This document shows, piece by piece, positions 37,217 through 43,904 of a DNA stretch of 64,000 bases. Below the pieces are notes generated by a model. The model saw only the letters and a list, made by a program, of their open reading frames with translations, was not told the DNA's origin and searched no databases. The position numbers were made by a program, and so were the translations under genes. Origin of the DNA: Leucobacter zeae (GTDB lineage Bacteria; Actinomycetota; Actinomycetes; Actinomycetales; Microbacteriaceae); NCBI RefSeq assembly GCF_016758175.1, contig NZ_QYAB01000001.1, forward strand, positions 673,256 through 737,255, given 5' to 3'. Positions within the stretch are counted from its first letter, which is position 1. Every line of letters starts with the position of its first letter.

Positions 37217-37353
37217 GGATCCTGCGACTCCTTCGTCGCGCAGGATGACGGGGGACCGCTGTCGCGCAGGATGACGGGAAGTGCCGTCGCGCAGGATGAC
37301 GGGAAGCGCCGTTCTCCCGTCATCCTGCGCGAGCGGAGCGAGTCGCAGGATCC
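37217..37353. repeat. Composite repeat element, family C (inverted ends with internal direct repeats)
   Basis: The left end (37217-37252) begins GGATCCTGCGACTC and the right end (37316-37353) ends in its complement GAGTCGCAGGATCC. Between are further direct copies of GTCGCGCAGGATGACGGG at 37235, 37261 and 37286, spaced 25-26 bp. A related copy is at 42880-42953. This kind of palindromic intergenic repeat is widespread in bacteria; its function is unclear. Confidence 0.85.
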
Positions 37354-37415
37354 CCGCCCGCTCACTATGATGTTCCCCGGTGCGGATGAGCCGGGCCATG
37401 ATCGAAGGAGCCCCG

Positions 37416-38810
37416 ATGGCGCTGCCCTGGAAGCTGCACGGCGACGGCAAGCATGTCGCCCAGACCGCGATCGTGCTTCCCGAGCAGCGCATGACCTGGC
37501 CGCGCACGATCGGCTTCGGCGCGCAGCACGTGGTCGCGATGTTCGGCGCGACCTTCCTGGTGCCGCTGCTGACGGGCTTCCCGCCGACGGCGACCCTCTT
37601 CTTCTCGGGTCTCGGCACGCTCCTCTTCCTCGTGCTGACGGGCAACCGCCTGCCGAGCTACCTCGGATCCTCGTTCGCGTTCCTCGCGCCGATCTGGGTC
37701 GCGACGGGCGTCGGGCCCGGCGCCGCTCCGACGGCCGACGGGCTCGCGCGGGCGTCGTTCGGAATCCTCGCGATGGGCGTGCTCATGGCCATCGTGGGCC
37801 TCGTCGTGCACCGCTTCGGGATCGGCTGGATCAACGCGCTCATGCCGCCCGTGGTGATGGGCGGCGTCGTCGCGCTCATCGGCTTCAACCTGGCGCCCGC
37901 GGTGAAGAACAACTGGCTCGGCAACCCGGCGGCGAACCCGGAGGTGAACCAGGGCCTGCACTCGACCGCGGCGCTCATCACGATCGCCTCGATCCTGCTC
38001 ATCACGGTGCTCTTCCGCGGGCTCATCGGCCGGCTCTCGATCGTGCTCGGCATGGTCGTCGGCTACGTCGCCGCGGCGCTCATGGGCATCGTCGACTTCT
38101 CCGGCGTCGCATCCGCGGCGTGGATCGGCCTGCCCGACTTCCACCTCCCGGGCAACCCGATCGCCGACCCCTCGCTGTGGGGCCTGCTGCCGTCGTTCCT
38201 CCCCGTCGTCCTGGTGCTCATCGCCGAGAACGTCGGGCACGTGAAGTCGGTCGGCCTGATGATCGATCGCGATCTCGACCCGGTGACGGGCCGCGCGCTG
38301 CTCGCGGACGGCGTCGCCACGGTGCTCGCCGGGTTCGGCGGCGGATCCGCGACGACGACCTACGGCGAGAACATCGGCGTCATGGCCGCGACGCGCGTCT
38401 ACTCCACCGCCGCGTACTGGGTCGCGGGATCCCTGGCCCTGCTGCTCGGCTTCTCGCCCAAGGTCGGCGCGCTCATCTTCTCGGTGCCCGCCGGGGTGCT
38501 CGGCGGCGTGACCGTCGCGCTCTACGGCCTCATCGGCCTCATCGGCGTGAAGATCTGGATCGACAACAAGGTCGATTTCTCGAAGCCCATCAACCAGTTC
38601 ACCGCGGCGGTGCCGCTCATCGTGGGCATCGCCGATTTCGGCCTCCAGCTCGGCTCGCCCGAGCACCCGATCGTGTTCAACGGCATCGCGCTCGGCACGA
38701 TCGCGGCCGTCGTGGTGTTCCACGCGATGAACGGGATCGCGAAGGCGCGCGGCGGCGAGATGCAGGTCGCCGATCCGGTCGTGACGGCCGGGGAGCGCTC
38801 CGCCGACTAG
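37416..38810 (+). CDS. Uracil/xanthine permease (NCS2 family)
   Basis: 464 aa with about 12-14 membrane segments. ATG 37416 follows AAGGAG at good spacing. Signature residues: GFGAQHVVAMFGATFLVPLL, AENVGHVKSVGLMIDRDLDP and GGGSATTTYGENIGVMAATR, the NCS2 substrate and proton sites. The AENVGH and TYGENIG motifs favour uracil specificity (UraA/PyrP-like). It is a proton symporter in the inner membrane. It stands alone between a repeat element and the giant helicase gene. Confidence 0.93.
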   Translation: MALPWKLHGDGKHVAQTAIVLPEQRMTWPRTIGFGAQHVVAMFGATFLVPLLTGFPPTATLFFSGLGTLLFLVLTGNRLPSYLGSSFAFLAPIWVATGVGPGAAPTADGLARASFGILAMGVLMAIVGLVVHRFGIGWINALMPPVVMGGVVALIGFNLAPAVKNNWLGNPAANPEVNQGLHSTAALITIASILLITVLFRGLIGRLSIVLGMVVGYVAAALMGIVDFSGVASAAWIGLPDFHLPGNPIADPSLWGLLPSFLPVVLVLIAENVGHVKSVGLMIDRDLDPVTGRALLADGVATVLAGFGGGSATTTYGENIGVMAATRVYSTAAYWVAGSLALLLGFSPKVGALIFSVPAGVLGGVTVALYGLIGLIGVKIWIDNKVDFSKPINQFTAAVPLIVGIADFGLQLGSPEHPIVFNGIALGTIAAVVVFHAMNGIAKARGGEMQVADPVVTAGERSAD

Positions 38811-38880
38811 CTCCAGCGGATCCCGCAGGCCGCGGCCAAGAAACACCGGCGCGATTGCGTCGATTCTCACCCGAACCGCT

Positions 38881-38886
38881 TAGGGT
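38881..38886 (+). promoter_or_regulatory. -10 element of a leaderless transcript (giant helicase-like gene)
   Basis: TAGGGT lies 6 nt before GTG 38893; no ribosome site is present. Confidence 0.5.
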
Positions 38887-38892
38887 GGCCGT

Positions 38893-41800
38893 GTGTGGAG
38901 TGTAGATCGACGACGGCGACCGGAGCCTGAGGATCGCGGCGGGGACGACGCCGCGAAGCCGGGCGCGCCAGCGGCCCGGCTCGAGAACGACGGCGCGCTC
39001 GCCAAGGCGCCCGGTCCCGCTCCGATCGAGGATCAGCCGACCGAGGATCTCGCGTCGCAGCTGAGCGGGCCGGTCTCGCTGGTCGACACCTATGCCGACG
39101 AGCACGCCGATTGGCGGCGGGAGCTCGCCCAGATCGGCGGGCGCAACCCGCTGCTCCACTTCGACGACACCCCTCTCAACAGCATCGAGCTGTCGACGAC
39201 GCACCCCGGCGGCCTGCCCCAGTTCATCACGGGCAACAAGATCCTCCTCTCAGCCCTCATCCGCGACGACCTCGCGCTGCGCCAGGCGAAGAAGGCCGCC
39301 GGCCGGGTGACCGACAAGGCGATCGAGATGCGCACGGTGCGCGGGCTCGAGACCGTCGGCCTGGGCGTCGGCGTCGCCAAGTGGAGCTTCGAGGGCGAGG
39401 ACTTCTGCGCCCCGGTGCTGCTGCGGCCCCTCGCGATCCGCCGGTACGGCCGAGACTTCGAGCTCAAGCTCAAGCAGTTCCCCGTCGTCAACTCCGAGTT
39501 GATTCGGGCCCTGCGCGAGCAGTTCGGCATCGTCGTTGACGCTCGCTCGCTCATCGAGCTCTCGCAGTCCGAAGGCGTCTTCAAGCCGCAGCCCGTGATC
39601 GACCGGTTGCGGCAGATGGTCGCGGGCGTCTCGGGCTTCGTGGTGCAGCCGCGTCTCGTCGTCTCGTCGTTCCACAACGTGTCCACCGGTCTGGTCGCCG
39701 ACGCGCGCGATCTCGACTCGCCGATCCTCGCAGCGGTCTGCGGCAACGAGCCGGCCAAGCGCCGGCTTGCTGAGTCCTACCGGCCCGTCAGCGCGATCCG
39801 CCCGGACGAGCGCTCGCCCGAGACCGACCGCTACCTCTACGACGCCGACGCGGAGCAGGACGACGTGCTCGCGCAGATCGACGCCGGGCACTCGCTCGTC
39901 GTGCACACGCTGCCGGGCACCGGCGGCACGCAGACCGTGGTGAACGCGATCGGCAGCCTCGTCCGATCGGGGAAGCGCGTGCTCGTCGTGTCGCCGCGCC
40001 GCGCCACGCTCGACGGCATCACGCACCGCCTCGCGCGCGCCGGACTGAGCGGCCTCTCGGTCAGCCCGCGCCGCCTCCGCCGCAACCTGGTCGAATCGAT
40101 CAGCCGCAACGAGAACGCGCGCGGCGAGCAGCTCCGCGACGTCGACGAGGCGCTCGTCCGGCTGCGCGGCGTGCTGCTCGACTACCAGACGGCCCTCGCC
40201 GAGCCGGACGAGCGCTTCGGCGTCTCGCCGCTCGAAGCCCTGCGCCGACTCACGGTGCTCTCGCTCGACGAGAACCCGCCGCGCACGACCGTGCGCCTCG
40301 ACGACCAGGCCCTCAGCCAGCTGACGCTCGATCGCACCTCGGTGGCCGAGGCCCTCACCGAGGTCGCCCGGCTCGGGCAGTTCCAGTTCGGTCCCGAGGA
40401 CTCGCCCTGGTACGGCGTGAGCTTCAGCACGACCGAGGAGGCCCGCACGGCCTACCGGCTCGCCGTCGACCTCGCCGAGTCGCAGCTGCCGCGGCTCATC
40501 TCCATGTCGAACGAGGTCGTCAGCCAGACCTCGATGCGGCCGTACGAGACCATCGCCGAGCTGGGGGTCTACCTCCGGCTGCTCATGGGCATCCGGGAGA
40601 CGCTCGACCGGTTCACGCCGCAGGTCTACGATCGCTCGCTCACCGAGGTGATCGCGGCGCACGCCCCGCGCGGGGCCGACGAGATGTCCGCGTCGAACAA
40701 GCGCCGCCTGCGCAAGCTCGCCCGCGAGTACGTGCGCCCCGGGGTGCACATCACCGACATGTACTCCCGCCTCGTGCAGATCCAGCAGCAGCGCGTGCTG
40801 TGGCAGCGGTACACGACCGTGGTCGGCACGCGTCCCGAGGTGCCGCTCGGCATCTCCGACGTCGTCACGGCGTTCCAAGCGGCGTATCAGGATCTCGATG
40901 AGCTCGACCGCGTGCTCGGGACCGCCTCCGACGCCGACCGCATGAAGAACCTGTCGCTCGCATCGCTCGCGACCCGCATCGCCGACCTCGCCCGCGAGTC
41001 CGAGGTGCTGCAGAACATCCAGGAGCGCACGGCGATCGTCGAGCGCATGCGCGCGGCGCACCTCGAGCCGCTGCTCGCCGACCTCTCGGCGCGTCATGTG
41101 CCCGCGGATCAGGTCGGCGCCGAGCTCGAGCTCGCGTGGTGGCAGTCGGCGCTCGAGCGCATGCTGCAGACCAACCAGGCGCTGCTGAGCGCCAACACCG
41201 GTGTGCTCGAACGGCTCGAGGCCGACTTCCGCCTCGTCGACGATGCGCACGCCGGTGCGAACGGCACCGTGCTCGCCGCGTCGCTCGCCGACGCCTGGCG
41301 CGTGGCCGTGCTCGACCACAAGCAGGAGGCGCTCGCGATGCGCGACGCACTGCGCAGCGGATACGTGTCGGCCGGTGCCCTCCAGCAGCGGTCACCGAAC
41401 CTGCTCGAGGCGCTCGCGCCGGTCTGGACGATGTCTCCGTACGAGGTGTCGCACCTCCCTGCGACCATGCGCTTCGACACCGCCCTCATCGTCGACGCCG
41501 GCGCGACGACGCTCGTCGAGAACATCGGCGCGATCCGCCGCGCCGACCAGGTCGTCGCCTTCGGCGACACGATGACGCAGACCCCGTCCCCCTTCGAGAT
41601 CGGCGTCGGGCGGGCGGCGGAGGACGTCGAGGACGTCGAGGAGCTGCACCGCAGGTCGGCCTTCGCCCAGCTGAACGACGTGCTTCCGAAGCTGACGCTG
41701 ACGCGCAGCTACCGCGCGGGCGGCGAGGACCTCACGAACCTCGTGAACACCCGTTTCTACGGCGGATCGATCCAGTCGCTGCCCTGGGCGGGCAGCTTCC

Positions 41801-42699
41801 TCGGGCATTCGAGCCTCACCTACGAGTTCGTGCCGGGCGGCCAGGGCCTGCCCGATCCGCAGACGGGGGCGGTCGAGAGCACCGACGCCGAGGTGGAGCG
41901 CGTCGTGCAGCTCGTGCTCGAGCATGCGAGCGAGCGCTCGCGCGAGTCGCTCATGGTCATCACCGCGAGCGCGCACCACGCCGTCCGCGTCTACCAGGCC
42001 GTGCTGCAGGCCTTCTCGAAGTTCCCGCAGTACCGTGAGTTCCTGCTGGGCGAGCGCGCCGAGCCGTTCGCCGTGCTGACGCTCGAGCAGGCGACCGCGC
42101 AGAGCCGCGACCGCGTGATCTTCTCGATCGGCTACGGCCGCACGCCCCACGGCAGGGTGCTGTCGAACTTCGGCGGCCTCGGCCGCCCGGGCGGCGAGCG
42201 CCTGCTCGCGGTCGCGATGACCCGCGCCCGCCGCGCGATGACGATCGTCAGCTGCTTCAAGCCAGGAGACCTCGACACGGCGCGCATCAAGCACGGCGTC
42301 GTGGAGCTCGCCGAACTGCTCGCGTTCGAGCACCCCGAGCCCGAAGCGCCGTCGCTGCCCGCCGAACGCGACCCGATGATCGGCGAGCTCGCCGATCGCC
42401 TCGAGGGCATGGGTCTCACGGTGGCGCTCGACTACCGCGGCGCGATCCCGCTCGCCGCATCGCTCGGGGACCGGGCGATCGCGATCGACGTCGACCTGGG
42501 CTCGACCGACTCCGGCGACAGCCTGCGCGACACGCTCAGGCTCCGCCCCGCGGTGCTGCGCCGCCTGGGCTGGCACTACCACCGCGTCCAGAGCTTCGAC
42601 CTCTTCGCGGACCCGGACGAGGCCGCGCTGCGCATCGCGCGCATCGTGGGGTACGAGACCGAAGAGGCTGCGGGGCGTCCCGAGCCGTCGAGCGCGTGA
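38893..42699 (+). CDS. Giant SF1-helicase-like protein with degenerate ATPase motifs and MTES_1575-type C-terminus
   Basis: 1268 aa. About 65-300 resembles the DUF4011-type N-terminal region of large SF1 helicases (RNPLLHFDD; GNKILLSALI). The Walker A position reads PGTGGTQT (341-348), where related proteins have PGTGKSQT: Gly345 replaces the ATP-contacting lysine. The Walker B position reads VDAGATT (D868-A869) instead of DEAS, so the catalytic Glu is also gone, and GDDKQLPP is replaced by GDTMTQTPS. In contrast, C-terminal motifs are well kept: RDRVIFSIGYGRTPHGRVLS and GRPGGERLLAVAMTRARRAM. The last 90 residues (RLRPAVLRRLGWHYHRVQSF) match the MTES_1575-type restriction-like domain, itself lacking a clear catalytic set. 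It may be a structural or regulatory pseudo-helicase. Leaderless GTG start. Confidence 0.82.
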   Translation: MWSVDRRRRPEPEDRGGDDAAKPGAPAARLENDGALAKAPGPAPIEDQPTEDLASQLSGPVSLVDTYADEHADWRRELAQIGGRNPLLHFDDTPLNSIELSTTHPGGLPQFITGNKILLSALIRDDLALRQAKKAAGRVTDKAIEMRTVRGLETVGLGVGVAKWSFEGEDFCAPVLLRPLAIRRYGRDFELKLKQFPVVNSELIRALREQFGIVVDARSLIELSQSEGVFKPQPVIDRLRQMVAGVSGFVVQPRLVVSSFHNVSTGLVADARDLDSPILAAVCGNEPAKRRLAESYRPVSAIRPDERSPETDRYLYDADAEQDDVLAQIDAGHSLVVHTLPGTGGTQTVVNAIGSLVRSGKRVLVVSPRRATLDGITHRLARAGLSGLSVSPRRLRRNLVESISRNENARGEQLRDVDEALVRLRGVLLDYQTALAEPDERFGVSPLEALRRLTVLSLDENPPRTTVRLDDQALSQLTLDRTSVAEALTEVARLGQFQFGPEDSPWYGVSFSTTEEARTAYRLAVDLAESQLPRLISMSNEVVSQTSMRPYETIAELGVYLRLLMGIRETLDRFTPQVYDRSLTEVIAAHAPRGADEMSASNKRRLRKLAREYVRPGVHITDMYSRLVQIQQQRVLWQRYTTVVGTRPEVPLGISDVVTAFQAAYQDLDELDRVLGTASDADRMKNLSLASLATRIADLARESEVLQNIQERTAIVERMRAAHLEPLLADLSARHVPADQVGAELELAWWQSALERMLQTNQALLSANTGVLERLEADFRLVDDAHAGANGTVLAASLADAWRVAVLDHKQEALAMRDALRSGYVSAGALQQRSPNLLEALAPVWTMSPYEVSHLPATMRFDTALIVDAGATTLVENIGAIRRADQVVAFGDTMTQTPSPFEIGVGRAAEDVEDVEELHRRSAFAQLNDVLPKLTLTRSYRAGGEDLTNLVNTRFYGGSIQSLPWAGSFLGHSSLTYEFVPGGQGLPDPQTGAVESTDAEVERVVQLVLEHASERSRESLMVITASAHHAVRVYQAVLQAFSKFPQYREFLLGERAEPFAVLTLEQATAQSRDRVIFSIGYGRTPHGRVLSNFGGLGRPGGERLLAVAMTRARRAMTIVSCFKPGDLDTARIKHGVVELAELLAFEHPEPEAPSLPAERDPMIGELADRLEGMGLTVALDYRGAIPLAASLGDRAIAIDVDLGSTDSGDSLRDTLRLRPAVLRRLGWHYHRVQSFDLFADPDEAALRIARIVGYETEEAAGRPEPSSA

Positions 42700-42857
42700 G
42701 CGACTCTCGGCCCGCTCCGAAGCGGACGCCCCGGCGCGCGAGCCGTCCGGCTCCGGAGGGCACCGATCCCGAGCCCTACGATCCGCCGACGGAACCGCGG
42801 CCCGAGACGGAGAACGACGCGCGCCTCACCCAGGATCGCCCGCCCCACTGGGGCTGA
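42696..42857 (+). CDS. 53-aa proline/charge-rich ORF overlapping the helicase-like gene
   Basis: GTG 42696 overlaps the stop codon of the giant gene (GTGA), which implies coupled translation. The 53-aa product is rich in Pro, Arg and acidic residues (RRASRPAPEGTDPEPYDPPT) and ends DRPPHWG. No domain is recognised; it is predicted disordered. Its position and the clean termination argue that it is a real small gene, but this needs comparison with relatives. Confidence 0.55.
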   Translation: MSDSRPAPKRTPRRASRPAPEGTDPEPYDPPTEPRPETENDARLTQDRPPHWG

Positions 42858-42879
42858 GCGCTCGGGGTGGATTCCGCAG

Positions 42880-42953
42880 CGCGAGCGGAGCGAGTCGCAG
42901 GATCCACCGTAGCGCGGATGCCGCGACTGCTGCGTCGCGCAGCATGACGGCGA
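42880..42953. repeat. Family C repeat, second copy (diverged)
   Basis: GAGCGGAGCGAGTCGCAGGA matches the right end of the 37217-37353 element, followed by a diverged left-end-like copy (GCGTCGCGCAGCATGACGG). It lies between two convergent genes and may help terminate transcription. Confidence 0.7.
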
Positions 42954-42966
42954 TGCGTCGGATCCG

Positions 42967-43281
42967 TCAGCTCCCGGAAGTCCCCGAACCGCTGGACGAT
43001 GACCCGCTGGACGATGCCCCGCTGGAACCCGATCCGCTCGATCCCGAGCCCCCGCCCGACGAGGCGCCCGTCCCCGACCCCGATCCGCCCGACGTCGATC
43101 CGCCGGCGCGCGAGTCGGTGCGGTAGAAGCCCGAACCGTTGAACGTGACGCCGAGCGACCCGAAGACCTTGCGCAGCGTGCCGCCGCACTCGGGGCAGAC
43201 GGACAGTGCGTCGTCCGAGAAGCTCTGGTAGATGTCGAAGGCGTGGCCGCAGTCGGCGCAGCGATAAGCGTAGGTAGGCAC
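42967..43281 (-). CDS. FmdB-family zinc-ribbon protein
   Basis: 104 aa from GTG 43281 (VPTYAYRCADCGHAFDIYQS), the usual FmdB start. The zinc ribbon is CADC...CPEC. The rest is a Gly/Ser-rich low-complexity tail of about 45 residues, common in actinobacterial homologues. It lies next to the 5-FTHF cyclo-ligase gene, the same order as Rv0991c-Rv0992c in mycobacteria. The Mycobacterium homologue has been linked to chaperone function. Confidence 0.88.
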   Translation of the reverse strand: MPTYAYRCADCGHAFDIYQSFSDDALSVCPECGGTLRKVFGSLGVTFNGSGFYRTDSRAGGSTSGGSGSGTGASSGGGSGSSGSGSSGASSSGSSSSGSGTSGS

Positions 43282-43304
43282 GATCACCGATCGTACCCGG
43301 TGCA

Positions 43305-43904
43305 TCAGGCACCCGCGGCGTCGAAGCGCAGCAGGCCGCCGGGGGTGGCGGCGCCCGTGACCGGCACGTCGTGGGGGTCGCGGGGGAGCGCGGGCAGGAC
43401 GTCCTCGTCGAACACGACCGCGTAGACGGGCGGGCGCTCGGGCAGCGCGGCCAGGCAGCGGTCGTAGTAGCCGAGGCCCCACCCGAGGCGGGTGCCGCGC
43501 CGGTCGACCGCGCAGGCTGGGACCAGCATGAGGTCGACGCCGGCCGCAGCATCGGCGGGCAGGCGCTCGCCGGGCGGCTCGGGGATCCCGTGGAGGCCGG
43601 GCACGGCGGGCGCGTCGCCGCGGACCGCCCAGCGCAGCGTGCGATCCCGCTGCGAGACCGGGAGCAGCACCTCGATGCCGCGGCGCGAGGCCCACTCCAG
43701 GAACGGGCCGGTATCGGGTTCGTCGGCGGTGGAGATGAAGCAGGTGACGGAGCGGACCGCCAACCGTTCCGAGGCCTCCACGAGTACGGCGGTCAGCGCC
43801 TCCGCGGCCGATGCGCGCCGCTCCGCCGGCATCGCCGCGCGCCGCGCCCGCACCGCGGCGCGGACCGACCGCTTGACCTCCTGGGCTGCTGCGGCATCGC
43901 TCAT
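43305..43904 (-). CDS. 5-formyltetrahydrofolate cyclo-ligase
   Basis: 199 aa; converts 5-formyl-THF to 5,10-methenyl-THF with ATP. Family motifs: EVLLPVSQRDRTLRWAVR, VDLMLVPACAVDRRGTRLGW, and GLGYYDRCLAAL, the phosphate-binding GxGxGxYD-like loop. Leaderless: TACTCT (43911-43916) is 6 nt from ATG 43904. Divergent from galU, as in Mycobacterium (Rv0992c/Rv0993). Confidence 0.93.
   Translation of the reverse strand: MSDAAAAQEVKRSVRAAVRARRAAMPAERRASAAEALTAVLVEASERLAVRSVTCFISTADEPDTGPFLEWASRRGIEVLLPVSQRDRTLRWAVRGDAPAVPGLHGIPEPPGERLPADAAAGVDLMLVPACAVDRRGTRLGWGLGYYDRCLAALPERPPVYAVVFDEDVLPALPRDPHDVPVTGAATPGGLLRFDAAGA

Follow-up and report, generated by a model that had tools for sequence, protein, structure and literature searches.

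A 64,000-nucleotide (nt) stretch of the Leucobacter zeae genome (contig NZ_QYAB01000001.1, positions 673,256 to 737,255; hereafter the window, in whose coordinates all positions are given) encodes a giant helicase-like protein of 1268 amino acids (aa) in which the catalytic lysine and glutamate of the ATPase are lost. We found homologues of this giant in nearly every genome of the order Actinomycetales, mostly with the same loss and mostly beside, or fused to, a tiny protein that we refer to as the “PPHW tail.” Our best explanation, which we consider probable, is that a helicase-nuclease of superfamily 1B (SF1B) was domesticated and is now a core, ATP-independent scaffold or clamp of the order that works with the PPHW tail. 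Pseudo-helicases as such are known already, one at a time; new here are a giant one that is near-universal in a whole bacterial order and its undescribed partner family. The two genes and the parts of the giant, with the evidence for each, are:

38893–42699, + strand: giant pseudo-helicase/pseudo-nuclease, 1268 aa (open frame; homologues in 196 of 199 family genomes; purifying selection)
42696–42857, + strand: PPHW tail protein, 53 aa, 4-nt overlap with the giant’s stop (C-terminal signature NDARLTQDRPPHWG kept across the order; part of the giant itself in 22 of 220 distinct giants)
39133–39477, + strand: N-terminal DUF4011-like region, residues 81–195 (Pfam DUF4011 E = 0.023, under the cut-off; column conservation)
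39913–39936, + strand: Walker A site PGTGGTQT, residues 341–348, with Gly345 at the lysine position (alignments, residue counts)
40075–41415, + strand: mostly helical insert from motif Ia to Walker B, about residues 395–841 (AlphaFold2 secondary structure; column conservation)
41494–41505, + strand: Walker B site DAGA, residues 868–871, with Ala869 at the glutamate position (alignments, residue counts)
41563–41586, + strand: altered motif III GDTMTQTP, residues 891–898 (alignments)
42220–42231, + strand: motif VI TRAR, residues 1110–1113, retained (alignments)
42373–42645, + strand: Vsr/MTES_1575-like nuclease domain, about residues 1161–1251, core acidic residues replaced (Pfam MTES_1575 match under its cut-off; secondary structure; alignment)

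Loss of the catalytic residues and its reach

The giant’s frame is uninterrupted over all 1268 codons, as an initial annotation of this DNA had stated, and the L. zeae genome holds a single copy. The two residues that mark an active SF1 helicase are both replaced: Walker A reads LPGTG-G345-TQT, with glycine at the lysine position, and Walker B reads VD868-A869-GA, with alanine at the glutamate position. The initial annotation had named both residues correctly, and had rightly described the motif III–like segment as altered (FGDTMTQTPS versus GDERQLPPT in intact relatives). Its further statement, that the C-terminal motifs and an MTES_1575-like domain are kept, held only for motif VI, which is preserved as TRAR, whereas motif V has become ATAQSRDRVIF and lacks the QGDE of intact relatives. 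The Pfam MTES_1575 match (residues 1192–1248, E = 3.8e-7) reached 30.5 bits, under the gathering score of 38.2 bits, and the alignment places IPL for IDL and IDVD for VE.D in the nuclease core, which in intact relatives reads IDL...VE.DG. Pfam matches to AAA_12, AAA_11, and DUF4011 were all under their cut-offs as well.

The loss had been taken for a peculiarity of this genome, but it is spread throughout the order. Homologues of the giant occurred in 196 of 199 genomes of the window’s family, the Microbacteriaceae, covering 85 of 85 genera, and order-wide in 292 of 297 genomes; most family genomes gave one match and about 29 gave two or more, some of which are perhaps split matches. Position 345 was occupied by Gly in 103, Ala in 7, and Ser in 1 of the 111 rows of a first alignment. 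Among 121 distinct Microbacteriaceae sequences, it was Gly in 113, Ala in 6, Ser in 1, and Leu in 1, and never Lys, while position 869 was Ala in 116, Gly in 3, Ser in 1, and a gap in 1, and never Glu. The remaining P-loop residues (341–344 and 346–348) had a conservation of 1.00 in this family. We extended the comparison to an order-wide motif alignment of 115 rows, of which 103 are order members from 19 families and 12 are outside or paralogous sequences. Walker A and Walker B were both lost in 95 of the 103 order rows (19 families); the 8 intact rows comprised 7 of the 11 rows of family f18 and the sole row of family f5. All 12 outside or paralogous rows had intact ATPase sites. The Walker A replacement itself varied by family (GTGGTQT, GTGQTQT, GTGATQ, PPGAD), and in family f4 the P-loop was not recognizable (EQTGRHSADDAL). 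Rather than intact close homologues and decay in the window, we thus found close homologues that share the loss and intact copies that are distant. One family f6 genome (G203) has, besides its dead core copy, a long intact paralogue (L185; GKS, DEAS).

Selection and evolutionary history

By the Nei-Gojobori method, the ratio of nonsynonymous to synonymous substitution rates (dN/dS) was 0.022 to 0.214 in 17 pairs of dead copies and 0.164 and 0.285 in two pairs with an intact ATPase (21 pairs in total, 2 of them identical); in some of the pairs, dS reached up to 1.5 and synonymous sites were close to saturation. These comparisons indicate purifying selection on the dead giants, and together with the order-wide loss of both sites they bear out the earlier proposal of a pseudo-helicase under selection. 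A local pseudogene was rejected on the same grounds, the loss being common to relatives and dead-copy dN/dS being 0.02 to 0.21. The giant was also retained in genomes of only 0.8 to 0.9 Mb (G015, G249, G372).

When we compared alignment columns between 91 dead rows (weighted by family) and 20 intact rows, mean conservation went from 0.97 to 0.60 in motif I, from 0.84 to 0.48 in motif II, from 0.81 to 0.36 in motif IV, and from 0.83 to 0.48 in motif V, a shift that is possibly exaggerated by the distant outside families among the intact rows. In the dead clade, many of the best-conserved columns lay in the N-terminal region, several of them within the DUF4011-like part (H104, P105, G107, R124), and in the helical insert, where W506, R603, R615, L627, E744, and W749 scored high and the segment ELELAWW (744–750) is conserved.

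In a fast tree (97 of the 115 rows, thinned by hand), 85 order rows formed one side of a branch with a support of 96, and 74 of them, all dead, formed a clade at 100. A second tree (77 of the 115 rows, also thinned by hand, plus 8 new ones), to which families f95 and f83 of other orders had been added, contained a 76-row clade at 98 made up of order members, f95, and f83. Inside it, f83 and f95 grouped together and were dead (95), f5 and f18 were mostly intact (99), and 58 further rows from 16 or 17 families were all dead (100); long branches and uneven letter composition make the deep nodes less certain than their star marks imply. Parsimony on the second tree required 5 changes; with an intact root and no regain allowed, it required 5 losses, which points to about five losses of the ATPase, one of them preceding the divergence of 17 families. 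The tree follows the families, and the giant is vertically inherited.

The PPHW tail protein

The initial annotation had proposed a 53-aa open reading frame (ORF) overlapping the giant as its partner, and this ORF proved to be a genuine gene. It overlaps the giant’s stop by 4 nt, is conserved in relatives, and carries at its end a signature found across the order, ND.RL..D.PPHW. The window’s tail ends in RLTQDRPPHWG and so has the PPH(W/Y/H) ending by which we define the family; a tail profile, in which the window sequence was included, retrieved it from its own genome at E = 9.3e-6.

To quantify the linkage, we started from 233 loci, which represent 220 distinct giants. After removal of 11 that had less than 400 nt of downstream sequence, 198 order members remained, along with 11 outside or paralogous homologues. 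A tail stood beside the giant or was fused to it in 183 of the 198 order members and in 0 of the 11 outside homologues. Among the 15 misses, three end in PPHW with a longer end (L239, L240, L245) and three have altered endings (L168, L251, L255); all six of these near-tails were kept out of the 183. In a control, 8 of 1,537 ORFs qualified, five of which were genuine tails of giants dropped as duplicates, so that chance accounts for about 3 of 1,537 (a first version of the control, at 41 of 1,537, also counted ORFs that overlapped the locus). The 4-nt overlap was the commonest spacing (48 of 151), with the start of the small ORF set at the codon nearest the giant’s stop, a choice that favors short spacings. 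In 22 of the 220 distinct giants, from families f1, f6, f10, f14, f16, f18, and f19, the tail was the giant’s own C-terminus, and the fused or separate state changed 9 times on the tree (labels set by hand: 16 rows fused, 49 separate, 20 unlabelled). The fusions, the linkage, and the repeated changes of state are our strongest evidence that giant and tail work together.

Searches of the tail against Pfam and NCBIfam returned chance-level matches only, no solved structure containing it was found at E up to 10, and a literature search over titles and abstract openings, partly too broad or off-topic, returned no description of giant or tail. The tail thus appears to be an undescribed small-protein family. 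The actinobacterial protein CrsL resembles it in being tiny and widely conserved in actinobacteria; CrsL is disordered and binds CarD and RNA polymerase (PMC12709188). It is encoded beside otsA, however, outside the tail’s block, and by this comparison of gene location alone we set it apart as a candidate for the tail protein.

The tail reaches further than the giant. A class-wide profile (31 rows, six from outside the order) gave matches at E of 0.05 or better in 105 of the 118 class genomes sampled, the weaker matches possibly including chance ones, while the giant was present in 20 of 118 class genomes, 8 of them order members (the same draw, judging by the listed handles). Among the 30 best tail loci, mscL was no more than about 1.5 kb away in 18. 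The Mycobacterium-like and Streptomyces-like tails end in PPHH and occupy the same block, with the giant absent; the tail, found without the giant in other orders, therefore has a role of its own. In family f95, from another order, giant and tail lay on one strand, 0.2 to 4.4 kb apart, in 7 of 7 sampled genomes, and the giant was dead (lysine to arginine, altered Walker B) in all 6 rows aligned (L305 was left out of this motif alignment). A CBS-domain gene stood between the two in the four f95 loci tested (L305, L306, L309, L310).

As a side observation, loci L220 to L225 have a small PPHH-ending ORF near moaB2 or mscL and no giant. Mycobacterium smegmatis moaB2 is termed the last gene of its operon in one report (PMC11656743), and a PPHH ORF behind moaB2 may have been overlooked. 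We looked for five gene names in a Streptomyces comparison paper (PMC4255298) and found none of them there.

Predicted structure and relation to known systems

We modeled residues 61–1260 with AlphaFold2 from an alignment of 48 rows, namely the window and 47 of the 67 full-length named loci. The model had a mean predicted local distance difference test score (pLDDT) of 74.5 and a predicted template modeling score (pTM) of 0.51, and it was weak over model residues 32–135. Its core matched Upf1 with a Z score of 20.5 over 433 residues at 4.9 Å and 16% identity, and also matched IGHMBP2, Dna2, Sen1, and Aquarius, placing the giant among the SF1B proteins of Upf1-like fold; the fold was closer to Upf1 and Dna2 (Z about 20) than to UvrD (Z = 15.5). 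From these SF1B proteins, with which it shares the helicase core fold, the giant differs by its low identity, the loss of the ATPase residues, and the long helical segment that separates motif Ia from Walker B, which the model presents as a large insert. Foldseek listed HelD–RNA polymerase at ranks 41 and 42 and a RecBCD chain at rank 43, with E = 2e-6 for HelD versus 1e-8 for Upf1. Helices and strands in the modeled C-terminal region are arranged as one would expect for a restriction-type nuclease.

The best profile matches were to anti-phage families. Over residues 650–1262, the giant matched ProA (NF058533) at E = 2.2e-98 with 330.4 bits and PADLOC PDC-S37 (1550 positions, cut-off not given) at E = 6e-101, the best stretch being profile positions 726–1344, and it matched Hhe (NF042953), with which it has the helicase region in common, at E = 3.6e-46 with 157.3 bits. 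The curated cut-offs of 1500 bits for ProA and 2000 bits for Hhe were not reached. Intact relatives L145, L174, L180, and L313 scored far above the giant on the ProA and Hhe models (L180: 1140 bits on ProA), and L145, L174, and L313 did so on PDC-S37 too. These comparisons indicate that the giant descends from ProA/PDC-S37/Hhe helicase-nuclease stock, yet is no member of the ProA or Hhe families. Unlike ProA and PDC-S37, it lacks the Walker A lysine, the Walker B glutamate, and motifs III and V, and it is a syntenic core gene with a PPHW tail; unlike Hhe, it lacks the catalytic residues and is a core gene at a fixed locus. We rejected the identification of the giant with MTES_1575 itself, a protein reported as longer than 2100 aa with HEPN and transglutaminase domains (PMC3710099).

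Other systems are comparable in how they work. AddB has a Chi-responsive helicase-like domain (PMC4824097) and RecC a nuclease-like domain that is inactivated (PMC1185551); both are reported to keep a noncatalytic helicase- or nuclease-like domain for another role. Both, however, belong to a complex with an active helicase-nuclease, whereas the giant has no known active partner. Yeast Utp25, a conserved helicase-like protein reported as a pseudohelicase (PMC9539457), is similar in kind but belongs to the unrelated context of eukaryotic ribosome assembly. Every isolate of Pseudomonas aeruginosa is reported to carry a large DUF4011 gene next to a small, conserved hypothetical gene (PMC10250203), perhaps another instance of a core giant paired with a small protein.

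A proposed ATP-independent clamp and its rivals

How would a domesticated, ATP-independent giant work with its tail? Its ancestor would have been a helicase-nuclease of the ProA/PDC-S37/Hhe type that combined an SF1B helicase of Upf1/IGHMBP2 fold with a Vsr-like nuclease domain. ATP hydrolysis would then have been lost, and in the window’s lineage probably the nuclease too, while the protein body was maintained. Judging by the fold, the giant may bind nucleic acid through its helicase fold and helical insert, with no ATP-driven movement. The fusions suggest that giant and tail form one physical unit, and the tail may recruit the giant to a partner present throughout the class, possibly the transcription machinery; that the tail contacts something common to the class is argued by its class-wide range. 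Since dead copies are near-universal and are kept with the tail, the selected job of the giant is apparently done without ATP hydrolysis. The moaB2 neighbor and the weaker HelD matches are a lead toward transcription. A more specific version of this scheme is tentative and, in our estimate, somewhat doubtful: a tiny PPHW/PPHH adaptor of the whole class would dock on a universal machine such as RNA polymerase, and a giant helicase-nuclease of anti-phage origin that works with this adaptor, stripped of catalysis repeatedly and convergently within a single order as well as in one or more families elsewhere, would have become a constitutive, ATP-independent nucleic-acid clamp belonging to the core machinery.

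Several observations weigh against the proposed domestication into an ATP-free clamp with its tail. The P-loop minus its lysine is strictly conserved in Microbacteriaceae, which makes nucleotide binding without hydrolysis possible, and the intact sites in 8 of 103 order rows indicate that hydrolysis is still used in those lineages. Families f6 and f16 partly keep the acidic nuclease residues, so that nuclease activity may persist in their giants, and across families the loss of the nuclease appears less uniform than that of the ATPase. No giant match was obtained in 5 of the 297 order genomes, 3 of which are less than 90% complete. We found no tail adjoining the giant of the 0.9-Mb genome G015 (L236) or in the fetched stretch around the f83 giant (L312), and most sampled genomes of other orders had a tail with no detected giant. 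Binding between giant and tail is itself inferred from fusions and linkage.

The initial annotation had also suggested a role in genome defense, and a dead ProA/Hhe relative could indeed act as a sensor or decoy that detects phage and signals via the tail. The best family matches being anti-phage speaks for such a role, but 330 of 1500 bits for ProA and 157 of 2000 bits for Hhe lie far under the curated cut-offs, and a gene that is near-universal, fixed at its locus, vertically inherited along the families, and kept in 0.8- to 0.9-Mb genomes does not behave as defense genes usually do. Of the 86 matching plasmid records, just one reaches 80% coverage, with the core block on it, and a single phage record matched. 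We therefore consider the defense role unsupported and decidedly unlikely, and a defense island was rejected on the giant’s universality and synteny. The precedents of RecC (PMC1185551) and AddB (PMC4824097) would fit a giant that serves as a pseudo-subunit in DNA-break repair or recombination and splits strands or recognizes sequence beside an active enzyme, as would the SF1 fold and the RecBCD chain at Foldseek rank 43; with the giant as the sole annotated helicase among 11 Actinomyces oris block features and a fold nearer to Upf1/Dna2 than to UvrD, we regard this as unlikely. Not likely either, in our view, is a transcription-associated giant acting on or near RNA polymerase, docked by the PPHW tail and resembling mycobacterial HelD minus the ATP. 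HelD–RNA polymerase is among the Foldseek matches, the tail gene directly follows a moaB2-like gene in Mycobacterium-like genomes, M. smegmatis MoaB2 binds the primary sigma factor (PMC11656743), and a tail family that spans the class should have a partner that does too; but the HelD similarity is weaker than that to Upf1, neighborhood by itself is weak, and moaB2 is absent from the 11 A. oris features.

Two further rivals question the premises of a dead giant that works with its tail. In Upf1, the YR pair of motif IV and the TRAR of motif VI contact ATP. Both are kept in the giant, and the rest of the P-loop is invariant in the family, as would be expected if ATP were still hydrolyzed in an unusual active site that takes its lysine and glutamate from elsewhere. 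With motifs I, II, III, and V all altered, however, and the P-loop gone in other families such as f4, this is very improbable. The tail could instead be a mere neighbor whose linkage reflects frozen gene order, given that other orders have it in the same block with the giant missing, and that the commonest spacing covers just 48 of 151 cases. Against this stand the 22 fusions in seven families, the 9 changes of state, and the f95 loci of another order, where giant and tail are neighbors again, and we judge it quite unlikely.

One clade holds intact relatives in two families, about five independent losses, and a small partner fused in seven families, which makes the role of a helicase fold without ATP directly testable within that clade. 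The history of the giant also suggests how an anti-phage-type enzyme may turn into a housekeeping protein.

Locus, mobility, and neighboring elements

Loci truncated by a contig end or with little flanking sequence reveal just part of the gene order; in the other Microbacteriaceae loci, convergent fmdB and 5-formyltetrahydrofolate (5-FTHF) cyclo-ligase genes, and then galU, generally come after the giant. The first of these in the window marks the conserved locus and lies outside the module:

42967–43281, − strand: FmdB-type zinc-ribbon gene, convergent syntenic neighbor (Pfam Zn_ribbon_8 E = 2.1e-17; synteny)

The block in A. oris runs DNA helicase, hypothetical protein, mscL, SAF, 5-FTHF cyclo-ligase, glp, and GNAT, and by this gene order the giant sits in a housekeeping, core-gene neighborhood. 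A search of 72,556 plasmid records returned 86 that match the giant, only one of them, from A. oris, at 80% or more of query coverage, and a search of 50,697 phage records returned a single match at 25% identity. A 415-kb A. oris record labeled as a plasmid (L274) holds the core block with mscL, 5-FTHF cyclo-ligase, and glp, and is probably chromosomal sequence or a secondary chromosome. Promoter and terminator scans over positions 38700–43400 found neither.

Directly upstream of the giant, at 37380–38810, lies a permease-like gene that is common to Leucobacter and a few relatives; present in few other Microbacteriaceae loci, it was rejected as a partner of the giant. A 24-base repeat, GCGAGCGGAGCGAGTCGCAGGATC, occurs at 37329–37352 and 42881–42904 and brackets the permease-giant-tail stretch. 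The pattern GCGAGCGGAGCGAGTCGCAGGATC had 19 matches in the 3.47-Mb genome (12 forward, 7 reverse; 0 in the control) and looks like a dispersed intergenic repeat.

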